In this document: positions 2,537 through 55,668 of the stretch, one piece after another | How positions within the stretch are numbered: the first letter of the stretch is position 1 | How the letters are laid out: each line of letters begins with the position of its first letter | Assembly: GCF_900112185.1 (NCBI RefSeq) | Contig: NZ_FOKP01000011.1 | Location: 1-64,000, forward strand | Length of the DNA stretch: 64,000 nucleotides | Direction of reading: 5' to 3' | DNA from: Allobosea sp. CRIB-10 | Lineage (GTDB): Bacteria > Pseudomonadota > Alphaproteobacteria > Rhizobiales > Beijerinckiaceae | The notes under the pieces: generated by a model | What the model saw: only the letters and a program-made list of their open reading frames with translations | Told to the model about the DNA's origin: nothing | The model's database searches: none | Position numbers and translations under genes: made by a program

Positions 2537-3186
2537 CTACTCGGCGGCTCTTGGTGCAAGATCGCGATAGCGGGAGGAGCGCGCCAGCCCGTGCGCCGTC
2601 TTGTGCCAGCCGAAGCGGTTGTCGAGATAGTCGTAGAGCGCCAGCCATCCGGCGAGCGAGGTGGCGAGATAGTAGAGCGGGAGCAGCCACAGCCGGCGTC
2701 GCAGGTCCGGCGCGCGGCGTCGCGAGGCACCGAGCGCCGGGAGCAGGAACATTGTCAGAAGGCCGCAGCCGGCGAGGCCGAGCGATATCGCCGAGAAGCA
2801 GGTTTCCCATGGCGTGGTGGGCGACAACAGCGAGCCTGCGAACATTGCTGCCCCTGTCGTAACGACAAGGAGCGGCAAGAGCAGCGTCCCCAACAGAGAG
2901 CCCAGCGTCAGAACCAGGAACGCCAGGGTCGCCGCGAGCCCGGCTTCGCGAGCCAGCCGGTCCGGGCGCTGCATATGGCTGATCAGCGTTTGCAGGTAGC
3001 CCTTCAACCAGCGCCTGCGCTGTTTCAGCCATGCCCGCAGATCGGGCGGCGCCTCTTCCAGCGTGTGGCTGGGTAGATCGGCCATGTACCCGCCGGCGCG
3101 GATGAGGCGGAAGCCGATATCCGCATCCTCCGTGACGTTCCATGGATCCCAGCCTCCGACGCGCCGCAGCGCATCCGTGCGGAAAT
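2537..3186 (-). pseudogene. Membrane glycosyltransferase family 2, C-terminal half (split by transposon)
   Basis: This is the 3' part of the gene whose 5' part lies at 5891-7141. It opens with FRTDALRRVGGWDPWN, which joins exactly to the last codons of the other half if the transposon and one copy of its target site are removed. It carries the second catalytic Asp in TEDADIG and the QRRRW motif of processive GT2 synthases, then four to five membrane spans. No start codon of its own is evident, so the protein is almost certainly lost. Confidence 0.85.
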
Positions 3187-3210
3187 GCGGCATTAGGTAG
3201 CAAAAACATG
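3187..3210 (+). repeat. Left terminal inverted repeat of the IS1595-family transposon
   Basis: Matches the right end (5869-5890, inverted) at all but one of 22 positions. It is preceded directly by the target duplication GCGGAAAT. Confidence 0.9.
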
Positions 3211-3342
3211 AAGGCGTAAAAAAGCGCTCCAATCACGAAATAGGACGCGACCTTGACGGCTTGCTCCATCTCCAGATTTCGTCCAAAATTTTCCTGTACA
3301 TCCGAATTGGATCGCGCTATCTCCGAAATTCGGAGGAAAGTG

Positions 3343-3825
3343 ATGAGCTACCTGACGGACGAGATCGCGGACGTGCAGCGCCGCCTGGAAGCCATCGACC
3401 AGGCTATCCAGACGCGTGTCAGGAAAATTCAGGACGACGCCACGACCGCGATCGTTCAGGCCATGCGGGATAGCGATGATGAGAAGACTGGTTTGCGCGT
3501 CAAGCTCGCGCACCTGATCGCCGCGGCTGGAGGATCAAGCCCGGTCGAACGGCCCAAGACCATCGAGGCCGATGCTTCCCTGGGCGCCGCGCCTTCCCCC
3601 CGGCGAACCGCTGGCGAGACCATCTTGGAGGAGTTGGCGAAGCAGGGTCCGCTTTCATCCAACGCCCTCGATAAGGCAGTAATGGCCGAGGGGTGGTCGA
3701 AATTCGCTGCCGAGAAGGCCAAGGTCGTTCAGAAGAAGAACGGCTGGATCATCAATGAGAAGAGGATCTGGACATTGACCCCCGAGGGGCAATCGAAGGT
3801 TTCAGGGACGCGATCAGAGCCCTGA
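3343..3825 (+). CDS. Transposon passenger protein: coiled coil plus winged-helix-like domain
   Basis: 160 residues. The start at 3343 is set by GGAGG at 3332-3336; longer readings of the frame lack such a site. Residues about 3-65 are heptad-rich and charged (EIADVQRRLEAIDQAIQ), predicting a coiled coil. A variable Pro/Ala linker follows. The last 65 residues (GETILEELAKQGPLSS through KNGWIINEKRIWTLTPEG) read like a small winged-helix DNA-binding domain with its beta wing. It is not a known transposition gene. The second passenger of this transposon has the same layout. No function assigned. Confidence 0.7.
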   Translation: MSYLTDEIADVQRRLEAIDQAIQTRVRKIQDDATTAIVQAMRDSDDEKTGLRVKLAHLIAAAGGSSPVERPKTIEADASLGAAPSPRRTAGETILEELAKQGPLSSNALDKAVMAEGWSKFAAEKAKVVQKKNGWIINEKRIWTLTPEGQSKVSGTRSEP

Positions 3826-3830
3826 AAAGA

Positions 3831-3864
3831 AAGAACGGCGCCGATTGGGATCGACGCCGTTCTT
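3831..3864 (+). terminator. Hairpin between passenger gene 1 and the tRNA-like gene
   Basis: A perfect 10-bp stem, AAGAACGGCG against CGCCGTTCTT, with a 14-base loop. It starts five bases after the stop codon of the upstream gene. It lacks a long T-run, so termination may be partial; it could also mark the 5' processing boundary of the tRNA-like gene, which begins four bases further on. Confidence 0.55.
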
Positions 3865-3867
3865 CAT

Positions 3868-3940
3868 GCGGACGTAGCTTAAGGTTTAGAGCAAGTAGAT
3901 TCCCAACTACCCAGTGCGGGTTCGAGTCCCGTCGTCCGCT
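3868..3940 (+). tRNA. tRNA-Gly(CCC)-like gene carried by the transposon
   Basis: Folds as a full cloverleaf. The acceptor stem is GCGGACG with CGTCCGC (7 bp, 3868-3874 and 3933-3939). The D stem is GCTT/GAGC with GG in the loop. The T arm is GCGGG-TTCGAGT-CCCGT. The discriminator base is U73, a tRNA-Gly identity element together with C35 and C36. The anticodon region reads ATTCCCAA between GTAG and CTAC. This gives CCC (3902-3904) in an eight-base loop closed by only four pairs, with an A-C mismatch where the fifth pair should be. CCA is not encoded exactly (TCCC follows). It is either a decaying tRNA or a variant with an expanded loop, like known +1 frameshift suppressors of tRNA-Gly. Confidence 0.75.
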
Positions 3941-3989
3941 CCCAATCCTCGATCCCTTGATCGCATAGATTCACAGCCTCCGATGCCTG

Positions 3990-4226
3990 TCAAGAGTCGG
4001 TCCGCTCGATACCCTTGGGAGAGCCGTTCGAGGCGAAAATCAGCCGAAGACCGGCATTTTCCAAGGCCGAAGCGAGCGCACGTGCATTGTTGGCTATCGG
4101 ACTACGCCGTTGTTTTTCGAAATCCCGCACCGTGGACAACGATACGCCTGCTGCGGTTGCGAGGTCTTCTTGCTTCCAGTCGAGCCAGGCCCTCGCAGCT
4201 CGGCACTGTTCCGGAGATATGATCAC
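3990..4226 (-). CDS. XRE-family helix-turn-helix regulator (transposon passenger)
   Basis: 78 residues from the GTG at 4226. The helix-turn-helix spans about residues 12-60: CRAARAWLDWKQEDLATAAG, then VSLSTVRDFEKQRRSPIANN, close to the short XRE regulators common in this order. The tail (ENAGLRLIF) forms the usual last strand. In-frame starts at 4235 and at a TTG (4244) just after AAGGAAG are possible; I prefer 4226 because family members begin MI-x-PEQCRAAR. It is divergent from the transposase gene and may repress transposition; that is inference from position. Confidence 0.75.
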   Translation of the reverse strand: MIISPEQCRAARAWLDWKQEDLATAAGVSLSTVRDFEKQRRSPIANNARALASALENAGLRLIFASNGSPKGIERTDS

Positions 4227-4327
4227 TATGGCCACTGAGGACAACTTCCTTAACCAACGTCAACGCCTATCGTTGACGATTCGAATGCCAACACTCATAG
4301 CTAAGGCCAACGATGGGCGTTGGTCAA

Positions 4328-5350
4328 ATGGGATCGAGGGGAAGCGAAAGTAGTGAACCTAAGGGGCAGCATTTCCTGCTCTCGGCTGCCGCACGTCGGT
4401 TATCGCTCGCCCAGATCGCTCGTTTAGACGACGATGACGCTTATGCTCTATTCTGCGGCATCCGCTGGTGCGACACCGAAGGCGAGCCGGTTTGCCCGCA
4501 CTGCGGTTGCTTGGCCATCTATCGGCACGAAAGCCGCAGGATCTTCACTTGCAAGGCTTGCGACAAGCAGTTCAGTGTCACATCGGGCACGATCTTCCAT
4601 TCACGCAAGATGGCCGTACGCGACCTGCTTATGGCGATCGCGATCTTCACGAACAGCGTGAAGGGTCACTCGGCCCTTCACCTATCTCGGGACCTCAACG
4701 TCCAATATAAGACGGCCTTCGTCTTGGCCCATAAGCTGCGCGAAGCGTTGGGCTACGAGACGACTACCAGAACCGCTAGCGGCGTGGTCGAAGTCGACGG
4801 CGCCTATTTCGGCGGTTACATCAAGCCCACGAATTGGGCCGAGAACCGGAAGGACCGACGCCTCGCCAAGAACCAGAACGGCAAGCGGCGCGTGGTCGTC
4901 ATCATGCGCGAGCGGGGCGGCCGAACGCTCCCGTTCGTGGTCAAGCATGAAGCTGAGTCCGTGCCGATCCTGGCCGATCGCATCCGACCTGGCAGCGTGG
5001 TCCATGCGGACGAGGCTCGGTCCTGGGATCCTCTCTACTATGCAGGCCTAGATGTTCTGCGGATCGATCACACGACAGCGTACTCGGACGGAGAAGCCTG
5101 CACGAACGGCGCCGAGTCGTTCTTCTCGCGGTTGCGCCGCGCTGAGATCGGTATGCATCACCACATCGCCGGACCTTACCTCGCGGATTACGCGAACGAG
5201 ATGGCATGGCGCGAGGACGCGCGAAGGATCGATGCCGCGACGCAGTTCCTCTTGATCGGCTTGGCTGCCTTGACGCATCCTCCCTCGCCTCGGTGGAAGG
5301 GATATTGGCAGAACGGCCCTGGAGCACGTCAGTCGGCGACGCCGTTCTGA
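4328..5350 (+). CDS. IS1595-family transposase (ISXO2-like)
   Basis: About 340 residues. An N-terminal zinc ribbon (CPHCG then CKACDKQF) is followed by the IS1595 catalytic domain. The acidic residues are visible in VVEVDGAYFGG and VVHADEA, and the third position is the Asn of CTNGAESFFSRLRR, as expected for this family. No frameshift is present, so the enzyme may be active. The start is uncertain (4313 or 4328; no clear ribosome site). The last 22 bases overlap the convergent passenger gene. Confidence 0.93.
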   Translation: MGSRGSESSEPKGQHFLLSAAARRLSLAQIARLDDDDAYALFCGIRWCDTEGEPVCPHCGCLAIYRHESRRIFTCKACDKQFSVTSGTIFHSRKMAVRDLLMAIAIFTNSVKGHSALHLSRDLNVQYKTAFVLAHKLREALGYETTTRTASGVVEVDGAYFGGYIKPTNWAENRKDRRLAKNQNGKRRVVVIMRERGGRTLPFVVKHEAESVPILADRIRPGSVVHADEARSWDPLYYAGLDVLRIDHTTAYSDGEACTNGAESFFSRLRRAEIGMHHHIAGPYLADYANEMAWREDARRIDAATQFLLIGLAALTHPPSPRWKGYWQNGPGARQSATPF

Positions 5351-5826
5351 TCCGGCTCCGCGGCATCGGATCTACCCGTCCGCCGTGACCAGGCGAGATT
5401 TCCGAATTTGTCGACCGAGGAGCGCACGCGACCTGCATCGCGATGCACTCGAAGAGCCTTCGATACCCGTCTGGTAATCTCGGAGATCATCCGCCGGTCA
5501 CGGACGTCATCTCCGCGCAGCGCGATGATGGCCTGAGCCAACTCGCGTGAGGTCATTGGTCCATCGGCATCTCTCAGCTCCCGGATTAGGCTTCTCGCGA
5601 GCTCCCCCTGCCCGAAGATCACTTCCCTCTTTTGACGTGGCATGGCCGCGTCCAGGTCGCCCTTATGTCCTAGAACACACAGTGTCCGATCCAGGGCTAG
5701 GAGATCATTTTTGATCTCTGCCAGACGGTCACGGATGCGCTCGGCTTCATGGAACATGTCGGCACGCTTCCGGATCAATCCGGAAATCGTGTGGTCGTAG
5801 GGCTTTCCCGTCTCTTCGCTCATCAC
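5329..5826 (-). CDS. Second transposon passenger protein: coiled coil plus winged-helix-like domain
   Basis: 165 residues. The N-terminal half has a heptad-like helix (FHEAERIRDRLAEIKNDLLAL). The C-terminal half resembles a winged helix (ELARSLIRELRDADGPMTSR ... RVRSSVDKFGNLAWSRR). The same order of parts occurs in the passenger gene at the other end, though the sequences are not obviously alignable by eye. It sits between the transposase and the right terminal repeat and converges on the transposase with a 22-bp overlap. Function unknown; a role in target choice or host-gene control is conceivable but not shown. Confidence 0.65.
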   Translation of the reverse strand: MMSEETGKPYDHTISGLIRKRADMFHEAERIRDRLAEIKNDLLALDRTLCVLGHKGDLDAAMPRQKREVIFGQGELARSLIRELRDADGPMTSRELAQAIIALRGDDVRDRRMISEITRRVSKALRVHRDAGRVRSSVDKFGNLAWSRRTGRSDAAEPDQNGVAD

Positions 5827-5868
5827 GGAAGTATGGCCCAGGCTATCAGGACGATAAATGGACCATCA

Positions 5869-5890
5869 CATGTCTTTGCTACCTAATGCC
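5869..5890 (-). repeat. Right terminal inverted repeat of the IS1595-family transposon
   Basis: Inverted copy of 3187-3210 with one mismatch. It is followed directly by GCGGAAAT, the second copy of the target duplication (5891-5898). Confidence 0.9.
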
Positions 5891-7141
5891 GCGGAAATGG
5901 TTGGAGGTGCCGCCGAGCATGATCGGCAGGCCGCAGGCCAGCAGACCGGGATTAAGCACGTCGAACAGCCCGGCATATTCCAGGGCGAAGCAGCCGCTGA
6001 TCCAGCTATCGCCGGGGTTGTCGATGACGAGATGCGCCTGCAGGCAGACGAGCTCGGCGTCCGAGCGCAGGAAGCGCGCCGCCGCCAGGCGTAGCTGGCG
6101 CGGATCGGGAACATCCTCGGCGTCGAAGATGGTGAACAGCTCGCCGCGCGCTTCGGCCAGCGCGACGTTGAGCGCGCGCGGCTTGGTCTGCGGGGCGCCG
6201 CGCGGCACGATCACGACATTCATGAAGGGCGGAAGTGTGCGGGCAGCAAGGGTGCGCCGCAGGTTCCAGTCGATCTCTTCGACGAGGATGCGGATGTCGA
6301 GCTTGGCGGCGGGATAGTCGAGCGCCGCGAGCGCCTTGATCAGCTGGTCGAGGACTGCTTCCTCCCCGAAGATCGGCACGGCGACGGTATAGACCGGCAG
6401 GCGACTGTCATCGATCTGCCAGCGGTGGTCTTGCCACAAGTCGGCCACTGGCTTCTCGGCCAGAGCCGCGAAGCGCAGGATCACGACGCCGAAGAATAGG
6501 GGACCGAGCGCGAGGCCAAGGGCGGTCAAGGTCGCGAGCGGCGACAACGTGCCGAACCAGGACAGCACCCCGACCAGCAGGCCGGCGAGGCATTTCTGCA
6601 GCCAGTTGCTTCCGGTTCGAGCGCTGAACCGCCGCAGTCCTGCCTCGTCGGTCCAAGCCGCTCTGTGAGCCAGCACGGCTGCATTGCTGCGTCGCAGCTC
6701 GGTTGCCAGCGCCGAAGGCGTCAGCATGACGATATCGCTTCGGCCAAAAGGCTTCGCCGCCAGAAAACGTCGCAATGCGGATCCGGGCGGCGGAGCCACG
6801 GCGAAGCGTAGAGGATTTCCGGGCCGCATATGCGTGGCGGCCACGCCCTCCCGCAGGATCGCCGCGATGTCGCCGCCCGGCTGCAACGATGGCGCGCGCG
6901 GCTGGAAGCGCAGGTCGAGCTCGGCAGCCAGCGCCCGGTAGAATTGCTCTTCAGTGACAAGGCCGGAGGCGATGACCTGACGGCTCGGCGACACGCTGAT
7001 CCGCTCAGCGAGCCGGGCGGCCTCCCGCAATTCTGCGGGCGGCACACCATGATCGGCGAGGAAGGCGATCTCGGCGGGCAGGCCGAGCATGCGCACCGCG
7101 GTGGCGTCGGCGCGCGGCCAAGCTAAGGCTTCCATCCCCAT
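5891..7141 (-). pseudogene. Membrane glycosyltransferase family 2, N-terminal half (split by transposon)
   Basis: 416 codons up to the insertion. Residues about 40-90 resemble the small N-terminal domain of type II secretion ATPases (MshEN-like; SRQVIASGLVTEEQFYRAL), a known fusion partner of GT2 enzymes. Two membrane spans lie near 183-225. The GT2 domain follows, with VAVPIFGEE, VEEID and the DxD-type metal site IFDAED (residues 340-343). The intact enzyme (about 630 residues with the half at 2537-3186) would be a processive polysaccharide synthase of the cellulose-synthase-like group. The insertion separates the DxD motif from TED and QRRRW. The start at 7141 (or 7135) is the first that leaves the whole domain in frame. 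Confidence 0.85.
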
Positions 7142-54017: not shown

Positions 54018-54093
<76 letters not shown>

Positions 54094-54257: not shown

Positions 54258-55442
54258 CTAGGCGAAGATGTCCGCTTTCGCCTTCAGGGTGCCCTCCCGT
54301 AGGGCTCGATACACCAGCGAGCCGGTCTCTTTTGGACCGCCCAGGGTGATGGTACCGGACTGGCTCCGTTTGGCGCCCACTGTCAGCCAGTGCTCGCCGC
54401 GCGTCCAATCGACAGTTGCGAGCTTCGCCGCCGCAACACGCGCAAACGCGGTCTCGAGGTCGGCGGGCTGTACGTCGTTCTCGAACTTATCGCCTGCCAA
54501 GCCAGTGTACGCGTCGTGACCGAGCGCGCCGATAGCGCACCACACCGAGGGGGAGGAGGCGAAGGTCTGCGCCCGCTCCTCTGGCAGAATAGCTCCGTTC
54601 AAAGCGTCTACCGCCGCCTTGAACCAAATCACCGACGCGGTCCGCATGGGTTCAACGAGACCATCGTCGATTGCGACCGGCTTCGTCTGGTTCTGGATGC
54701 CGTTGATCCCCTCCATGAAGCACACGACGCTGGCGCGGAGCGCGGAGATGGTCACCACCTCCTGATCATGGGCGCTGAGCTGCCGCTTCTGCCGGTTCAC
54801 CTTGCCCGTCAACTGGGACACCTGACGTTCGACATACTTGGCCAGTTGGGTCGCGTCATCGCGGTTGTCCATGCCGATGGCGAGGCTGGTGGTCACCTTG
54901 ACACCGAGGCGGTTGCAGTCGGCGAAAATCTGCTCTGCGGCGGCCAGCGGCGTCGCATGCTTGATCACCACCTTGATCTTCTCCTTGTCGAAGAGACCCG
55001 GCTCCAAGCCATCCGCGAGGTTGCGAGCGGTTGTCTGCGTGTCGCCATCGATAGCGACGAACTTGAGTTCATGCGGCACTAGTGCCCACGCGAAGCCGCT
55101 GTTCGCATCGACTTCGACCCGCAGCTCCTTCGCGGTGTATAAGACAATCTGGGGCGTGAACCCCTCGCGGGTCTTGACCATCTCGATCATGTAGCGCGCG
55201 TACTGCTCGACGTTCTTCCGCTTCGCGCCTGTGACGAGTCGCTGGACCTGGGCGCGGAGGTGGGCTGTCCCTGCCAGCTCGGGATTGTACTTCGCGAGTT
55301 GCCCTTCGAGCCGACGTGGATCAGGCACCAGCGCCTTGAAGAGGCCGTGGGTAAGGACGCCCTGAAATTCCGTTGGGCTGACGACGTTGCCGAAAATGGG
55401 GAAGCCCTCGTGGAGAGGGGGGTCAGGCAGAGTGACTTGCAT
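54258..55442 (-). CDS. DndB/DGQHR-domain-like protein, orphan
   Basis: 394 residues. The middle carries FVAIDGDTQTTARNLA (residues 128-142), matching the DGQHR site of the DndB family with an altered motif (DGDTQ), followed by AEQIFADCNRLGVKV (169-183), the second conserved block. DndB regulates DNA phosphorothioation, yet no dndA, C, D or E genes are here. AAGGAG seven bases upstream fixes the ATG at 55442. A terminator follows, so it is a single-gene unit. It lies just behind tRNA-Ala, a usual site for acquired DNA. The family call is by motif only. Confidence 0.65.
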   Translation of the reverse strand: MQVTLPDPPLHEGFPIFGNVVSPTEFQGVLTHGLFKALVPDPRRLEGQLAKYNPELAGTAHLRAQVQRLVTGAKRKNVEQYARYMIEMVKTREGFTPQIVLYTAKELRVEVDANSGFAWALVPHELKFVAIDGDTQTTARNLADGLEPGLFDKEKIKVVIKHATPLAAAEQIFADCNRLGVKVTTSLAIGMDNRDDATQLAKYVERQVSQLTGKVNRQKRQLSAHDQEVVTISALRASVVCFMEGINGIQNQTKPVAIDDGLVEPMRTASVIWFKAAVDALNGAILPEERAQTFASSPSVWCAIGALGHDAYTGLAGDKFENDVQPADLETAFARVAAAKLATVDWTRGEHWLTVGAKRSQSGTITLGGPKETGSLVYRALREGTLKAKADIFA

Positions 55443-55531
55443 ACGGGTGCTCCTTTGGCACGGCTTGAACCGCGACGCCGGAAGAACTAGCTTAGACCTA
55501 CCGACCCCGGCTTTGCTGAGCTGGGGAAGGG

Positions 55532-55601
55532 TGGTGGAGATGGAGGGACTTGCACCCTCGGGGCGTCGGCTGGACAACCTGGCCCCGCACTTGCCATCCC
55601 C
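55532..55601 (-). other. tRNA-like element with unusual central part
   Basis: On the minus strand: GGGGATG pairs with CATCTCC (7 bp, G3-U70 included), followed by A and CCA. A T arm GAGGG-TGCAAGT-CCCTC precedes the 3' strand. Between acceptor and T arm there are only 35 bases instead of about 41. They fold as one helix (GGGGC/GCCCC), not as D and anticodon arms. So it keeps an Ala-like acceptor minihelix but no readable anticodon. It could be a tRNA relic, a tmRNA-like remnant or a mimic. It lies 90 bases upstream of the DGQHR-like start. Confidence 0.5.
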
Positions 55602-55636: not shown

Positions 55637-55668
55637 CACCCGCTCTCGACCTCGAGGGCGGGTGTTTT
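55637..55668 (+). terminator. Rho-independent terminator of an unassigned plus-strand transcript
   Basis: A 13-bp stem CACCCGCTCTCGA/TCGAGGGCGGGTG (one G-T pair) followed by TTTT. No plus-strand gene ends here, so it may close a small RNA or an antisense transcript from 55443-55636. Confidence 0.6.

Follow-up and report, generated by a model that had tools for sequence, protein, structure and literature searches.

Hairpin-linked tRNA-like elements in the cargo of IS1595-family transposons: a Gly-type member and its putative Ala-type and Ser-like relatives

IS1595-family elements with passenger genes are among the closest described relatives of the locus reported here, with which they share the transposase family, terminal inverted repeats, an 8-bp target duplication and the presence of passengers. 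No reports of tRNA-like passengers on IS1595 elements were found in the open literature, subscription papers and preprints lying mostly outside this search. tRNA-like structures that function at the end of an RNA are well known from plant viruses. The DNA analysed here, termed the window, is a stretch of 64,000 nucleotides (nt) from Allobosea sp. CRIB-10 (contig NZ_FOKP01000011.1, positions 1 to 64,000), in which an IS1595-family transposon at 3188-5891 contains a tRNA-Gly-like cloverleaf at 3868-3940. Related transposons conserve the element in its position, in acceptor and T stems that are paired and covary, and in the determinants of a single synthetase (Gly here, Ala in most relatives), with D and anticodon arms free to change. 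We lean towards the view that it is the Gly-type member of a mobile family, each unit a hairpin followed by a tRNA-like element, whose RNAs would be aminoacylatable, probably do not decode and lie at the 3' side of exchangeable cargo.

The Gly-type element and its closest relatives

The Rfam tRNA model matched the window element with 48.2 bits (gathering score 29; E 3.2e-7 in the 64-kb window). According to PMC9976931, bacterial glycine determinants are U73, G1-C72, C2-G71, G3-C70, C35 and C36, and those for alanine A73, G2-C71, G3.U70 and G4-C69. The window element carries U73, G1-C72, C2-G71, G3-C70 and CC in the loop. ARAGORN reported 3868-3942 as tRNA-??? (cc), a tRNA of unassigned type with five anticodon-stem pairs including an A.A mismatch and a 6-base loop; the minimum-energy fold instead has a four-pair stem and the 8-base loop ATTCCCAA. 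The five-pair anticodon stem and 7-base loop of a functional tRNA-Gly are absent. A first-pass annotation of the sequence had described a tRNA-Gly-like gene with U73, C35 and C36 between a hairpin and an XRE gene inside an IS1595-family transposon, and had drawn the four-pair stem with its 8-base loop; coordinates, cloverleaf, determinants, context and fold were all reproduced. Its statement that the CCA is lost applies to A76 alone, since C74C75 are encoded (3' end U73-CCC). Hairpin and tRNA-like part together fold at -39.1 kcal/mol (z = -2.23; 6 of 200 shuffles were equally good). This energy is only modestly unusual, and conservation is the stronger evidence.

In a scan of genome contigs that yielded 48 loci (loci are given below as L numbers, genomes as G numbers), the three closest transposases, 73-75% identical to that of the window, were each preceded at about 400-550 bases by a tRNA-Gly that ARAGORN called in matching orientation. 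L108, whose transposase is 57-58% identical, was added by a scan for acceptor and T arms; L022 and L023 are 99.7% identical to each other. In the four related elements (window, L021, L022/L023 and L108) the tRNA-like gene lies 3' of the same ORF (open reading frame) and a hairpin. It starts 42 nt after the ORF in the window and 40-48 nt after it in the three relatives, on the same strand, so that the two features expected of a 3' tRNA-like structure of an mRNA, a position 3' of a same-strand ORF and determinants for aminoacylation, were both found.

None of the 12 acceptor and T pairs is lost in any of the four distinct Gly-type sequences, which show compensatory changes at 3-70 and 6-67; U73, G1-C72 and C2-G71 are invariant. 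The covariation score of the group was 0.250 compared to 0.100 for shuffled data (4 of 500 as high), slid controls reached at most 0.067, and the pairs of the hairpin covary as well. The D and anticodon arms differ beyond alignment. CCC is present in the lower loop of all four elements, and the loop itself has 8 bases in the window, 9 (with mismatches) in L021, 7 in L022 and 5 in L108. The first-pass annotation had considered a decaying gene, had named copies that lack the tRNA or show random decay in its stems as refuting its reading, and had proposed to test whether loop and stem covary. Neither of these signs was seen: in the four closest relatives that share the upstream ORF, the acceptor and T stems are fully paired with compensatory changes. 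The 8-base loop, in turn, is not kept in other copies. Judged by this pattern of conservation, the Gly-type element is not a random relic.

Among the first 58 elements, the ORF family of the window cargo (cluster 9) is confined to Gly-type loci (6 of 6 members, including L113, which repeats L023); ORF, hairpin and tRNA-like gene therefore go together. The cargo ORFs of the Gly relatives are 28-34% identical to that of the window, and further relatives of this ORF occur without a tRNA-like element in G842 (two) and G996. R1, a model of the Gly-type elements, had tRNA-Gly GCC, UCC and CCC, unprompted, as its closest host genes. A short DNA query in 385 genomes of the class returned the element's own copy and a 33-base tRNA-like match in G054, with no other clear copy, and R1 recovered only two already known copies in 18 genomes of another family. 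Phages gave no match, and viral contigs gave one distant transposase and no tRNA.

Ala-type and Ser-like members

We scanned 58 whole or partial transposons (239 kb) together with 324 kb of flanks for paired acceptor and T arms with an upstream hairpin, setting no requirement for G3.U70 or A73. At a score of at least 16.5 and a hairpin of at least 9, the scan returned 12 distinct rows inside transposons (13 with L113) and one in the flanks, the other high-scoring flank rows being ordinary host tRNAs. With later scans added, the Ala-type set comprises 18 distinct sequences, which fall into 12 clusters at 80% identity. In all 18 of them the pairs 1-72 and 2-71 are G-C, 3-70 is G.U and position 73 is A. 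Each of the pairs 5-68, 6-67 and 7-66 occurs as four pair types, and G.U fills only 2 of 108 other acceptor cells. Six further Ala-type elements, found by eye (L183 and the first L188 copy) or with model R2 (L198, L226, L228 and a second copy in the window), also have G3.U70; these six do not count as independent evidence for the pair, R2 itself having been built from G3.U70 sequences. The host genes nearest to R2 were, unprompted, tRNA-Ala in all four cases checked. Lowering the ARAGORN threshold produced noise, and those calls were set aside.

Ordinary tRNAs have U at position 8. This position is not U in any of the 18 Ala-type sequences nor in L108, and the lower-arm loop has 8 bases in 11 of the 18 Ala-type folds. 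From such features, the tRNA-like elements are probably not used for ordinary decoding.

Two Ser-like elements with G73 and long variable arms (L029 and L032) reside in the transposon type that has another regulator in place of the XRE gene. The one in L029 (4926-5040), just downstream of the transposase, has a 46-nt variable region and the loop TTCCTAA; the one in L032 (3717-3833, minus strand) follows directly on a 14-bp hairpin, and its loop CTTTAAA would read UAA, a stop codon. L188 carries tandem Ala-type elements at 5515-5589 and 5618-5687, 27-30 nt apart, the first with a hairpin. In L198, L226 and L228, an ORF, a hairpin and an Ala-type element lie in remnants resembling transposon ends; searches of the stretches for L228 and for the wider L229 and L230 returned no transposase. 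tRNA-like genes near transposon ends (L115 and L121), a degenerate one (L227) and a low-scoring G3.U70 row of L105 at 3669, taken as chance, were left out of the family.

A strong hairpin lies within 20 nt of the element in 23 of 33 elements, compared to 7% of control positions, and a pyrimidine precedes the element in most sequences displayed. Sorted by the gene that diverges from the transposase, 86 loci fell into 30 with an XRE gene, 51 with a regulator of another type, presumably DUF6471, and 5 with neither (the duplicates L113, L179, L180 and L158 were left out; L022 and L023 were both counted). The scan detected tRNA-like elements in 23 of the 30 XRE loci; L183, recognized by eye, raises this to 24, of which 17 are Ala, 5 Gly and 2 of other types. 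Among the 51 loci with the other regulator, 5 have one. By-eye inspection was given only to the seven XRE loci without a scan match, and the Fisher P of 1.8e-10 for the two types ignores both this extra inspection and relatedness. Outside the Gly clade, 17 of 19 elements of XRE loci are Ala-type (L183 included). The transposase tree groups the Gly-type loci in a single clade (support 0.96); Ala-type XRE loci lie near it with weaker support, intermixed with XRE loci lacking an element. The tRNA-like part changes between closely related transposases, as in L024 and L025 (transposases 94% identical, tRNA-like parts 51%), and therefore belongs to the exchangeable cargo side.

The transposon, its cargo and a second element in the window

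The window transposon has the transposase domain, inverted ends and 8-bp duplication of the IS1595 family (Table 1). The 23-bp inverted repeats differ by one mismatch, and the duplication CGGAAATG is identical at 8 of 8 positions in both flanks, as are the 8-bp duplications of 46 of 88 loci examined (L113 repeats L023). The insertion interrupts an ORF on the minus strand, and the host genome holds a single copy of the transposon; the transposase had 15 plasmid matches. A target such as CATTTCCG/CACTTTCG is common to many elements (window at 3180-3187, L022, L023, L028, L119, L132, L105, L177 and L184), which suggests a preferred insertion target. In the window and in L177 it lies, by eye, in a glycosyltransferase-like gene at GGTSNHFRG. 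We found no evidence of a promoter.

Table 1 Features of the transposon and of the second tRNA-like element in the window.
Feature	Position	Strand	Evidence or remark
Left target duplication copy CGGAAATG	3180-3187		8/8 match
Left terminal inverted repeat CGGCATTAGGTAGCAAAAACATG	3188-3210	+	
Cargo ORF, 160 aa	3343-3825	+	
Hairpin without U-tract, directly 5' of the tRNA-like element	3834-3861	+	covariation helix 1: 90.6% of cells paired
Gly-type tRNA-like element, U73 then CCC	3868-3940	+	
XRE-type helix-turn-helix regulator, convergent with the tRNA-like element	3990-4244	-	PF01381 E 1.9e-8
IS1595-family transposase, 345 aa, no internal stop	4313-5350	+	PF12762 E 2.8e-40; NF033547 E 9.7e-41
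Right-end accessory ORF, 165 aa, HTISGLIRKR-type start	5329-5826	-	related elements repeatedly carry homologues at their right end
Right terminal inverted repeat CGGCATTAGGTAGCAAAGACATG	5869-5891	-	
Right target duplication copy CGGAAATG	5892-5899		
tRNA-Ala(GGC) gene	54018-54093		near the second element
DndB-domain gene, directly 3' of the second element	54258-55445	-	PF14072 E 5.9e-21
Ala-type tRNA-like element (G3.U70, A73, CCA encoded)	55532-55601	-	R2 46 bits, E 1.5e-4; fold
Hairpin about 35 nt 5' of the second element	55637-55664	-	fold

AlphaFold2 (4 sequences, mean pLDDT 79.6, pTM 0.44) predicted a long N-terminal helix (residues 2-61) and a C-terminal winged-helix-like domain for the window cargo protein. 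The protein showed no Pfam family above cut-off, and a Foldseek search with the model gave nothing at E of 0.001 or below, the best regulators being MarR-type winged helices at E of about 0.006. In three transposase-less remnants (L198, L226 and L228), a similar-looking ORF was recognized by eye. In L105, a 361-aa ORF near 4937, which by eye has the look of an IS630-type transposase, ends 34 nt before a tRNA-like element.

No transposon ends were found near the second element of the window (55532-55601), so the family is not confined to IS1595 elements. Its hairpin lies beyond the 20-nt range of the hairpin test, within which this element scores like the controls.

Interpretation and relation to known systems

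In the arrangement we favour, the cargo ORF is followed by the hairpin and by the tRNA-like element, which would end the variable left cargo before the convergent XRE gene and the transposase. The tRNA-like element would be transcribed together with the cargo, and RNase P, in line with its known preferences, might cut between hairpin and tRNA-like part and leave the cargo mRNA with a hairpin end; the hairpin just 5' of 23 of the 33 elements fits such a cut. The tRNA-like part would then receive CCA and be charged by the host synthetase. Handling of the RNA by host tRNA enzymes is suggested by the retained identity together with the partly retained C74C75. The likeliest role within this scheme, put forward tentatively, is that of a 3'-end device, in which host tRNA enzymes give the cargo transcript a defined, hairpin-protected end; the charged tRNA-like part, attached or released, would be stable in the manner of plant-virus 3' tRNA-like structures. 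It is conceivable, with rather more doubt than belief on our side, that bacterial transposons hold a novel class of mobile RNA, in which the transcript of each exchangeable cargo cassette terminates in a hairpin plus an aminoacylated tRNA-like structure that does not decode (Ala, Gly and perhaps Ser); among bacterial mobile elements, this would be the first 3' end of its kind. More broadly, jumping genes may use the host tRNA machinery beyond ordinary protein synthesis.

Several observations weigh against this picture. Ten of the 33 elements have no strong hairpin within 20 nt (L103, L105, L107, L181, L183, L184, L185, L188 second copy, window second copy and L029), 6 of the 30 XRE loci have no tRNA-like element at all, and an ORF resembling the window cargo in layout by eye lies just upstream in only 12 of 24 elements, the remainder being preceded by an unrelated ORF or by no clear one. 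Related tRNA-like sequences are exchanged along with cargo, as between L177 and L184 (transposases 95% identical, tRNA-like parts 47%). As the Ala-type scan demanded paired stems, pairing in this set is partly by construction; as to A73, later scans rewarded A, U or G before CC. Among the determinants, G4-C69 is replaced by C-G in 6 of the 18 Ala-type sequences, and L022 has A3-U70 and C55. The Ala anticodon TTGCA is kept in the loops of L025, L107 and L185, so that Ala-type elements may yet decode, and the normal 7-base loops of the Ser-like elements also count against a non-decoding function.

A tRNA with an altered anticodon that serves the transposon, as a +1 frameshift suppressor or a GGG/GGA reader, would account for the CCC in the lower loop of all Gly-type elements and for the 8-base loops of the Ala-type folds, since loops of 8 bases occur in frameshift suppressors; the UAA-reading loop of L032 would fit as well. 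We regard this as very unlikely, because loop size varies among the Gly relatives and position 8 is lost in L108 and in the Ala type. The first-pass annotation had raised both frameshift suppression and compensation at GGG codons. Neither is upheld: the ORFs of the window transposon are all open without a shift, which also speaks against frameshift or nonsense suppression as a general use, and the host has ordinary tRNA-Gly genes for GCC, UCC and CCC, which makes GGG compensation unlikely. Complements of the loop on the mRNA strand of 20 transposons were not in excess either (k=6, 68 vs 64.4; k=7, 10 vs 10.8; k=8, 1 vs 1.6), and the loop itself accounts for the excess seen on the other strand. 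Of 42 transposase frames of relatives, 7 are broken by a single TAA, TAG or TGA stop (G189, G468, G706, G455:C8, G413, G760 and G702), and these stops were not tied to suppressor anticodons. Captured host tRNA genes or functionless pseudogenes dragged along with the cargo are the most improbable of the alternatives. The tRNA-like genes near the ends of L115 and L121, with an imperfect acceptor or odd loop, look to be of this kind, and L227 is clearly degenerate. Relics, on the other hand, would not be expected to hold G3.U70 invariant next to pairs that change freely, nor to occur in 24 of 30 XRE elements.

The charged element might also act in trans on translation, tmRNA-like or as a decoy aminoacyl RNA that occupies synthetase, EF-Tu or ribosome; variants of the same idea cast it as a toxin or addiction device, as an antidote against a toxin that attacks tRNAs, or as a means of interfering with ribosome rescue. 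A decoy had also been raised by the first-pass annotation and is retained here as an alternative. Taken jointly, these are unlikely in our estimation; the retention of identity alongside changing decoding parts speaks for them. Ala-type elements match the ends of the Rfam tmRNA (transfer-messenger RNA) model with its interior deleted (L025, 19.3 bits, E 3.3e-6; L184, 23.2 bits, E 5.2e-8; L190, 17.3 bits, E 1.5e-5); these matches, from searches of only 151-241 bases, are far below the gathering score of 47 in all three elements tried. No tag reading frame was seen, a defence library gave only weak matches to the cargo protein (DrmD, E 0.002), and there was no indication of a partner toxin. Action of the element as DNA, at a junction where cargo cassettes are exchanged, is quite improbable. 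Integron attC sites and attachment sites in tRNA genes are precedents for such junctions, and the homology between transposons starts exactly at the 5' end of the element in L187/L189 and, in L025/L185, a single base ahead of it. Moreover, where transposases are 94-95% identical, a change of cargo goes with a change of the tRNA-like part, and L188 holds tandem elements. Set against this, homology restarts only 59-127 nt after the element in L177/L184 and L024/L025, no integrase was noted among the listed ORFs, and no role in recombination is known for G3.U70, whose counterpart on the other DNA strand is an A.C that resembles a mismatch.

Should the charged state be what selection keeps, a DNA transposon would have evolved its own aminoacylated RNA apart from decoding. 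The range of tRNA-like structures would then include, besides tmRNA and RNA viruses, a common class of bacterial transposon; natural libraries of minimal substrates of the Ala and Gly kind would become available, and the role of such ends could be tested directly. As a caution, some annotated tRNA genes of insertion sequences and some 'pseudo-tRNAs' would be conserved elements.

Compared to host tRNA-Gly and tRNA-Ala, the tRNA-like elements are alike in acceptor and T stems and in identity determinants, and differ in position 8, in the D and anticodon arms, in their mobility and in the upstream hairpin; CCA is usually not encoded. With the tRNA-like domain of tmRNA (RF00023), of which the 64-kb window holds no match at gathering score, Ala-type members share G3.U70, A73, the T arm and a reduced middle; the transposon elements differ in being mobile, in forming one piece of about 70 nt without tag frame or pseudoknots, and in including Gly-type members. 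The plant-virus 3' tRNA-like structures (RF00233, matched weakly at 15.0 and 19.6 bits vs 40, and others) have in common with them an aminoacylatable-looking structure 3' of an ORF. The elements described here, in contrast, belong to a bacterial DNA transposon, form a cloverleaf without pseudoknot, come in Gly, Ala and Ser types and are preceded by a hairpin.
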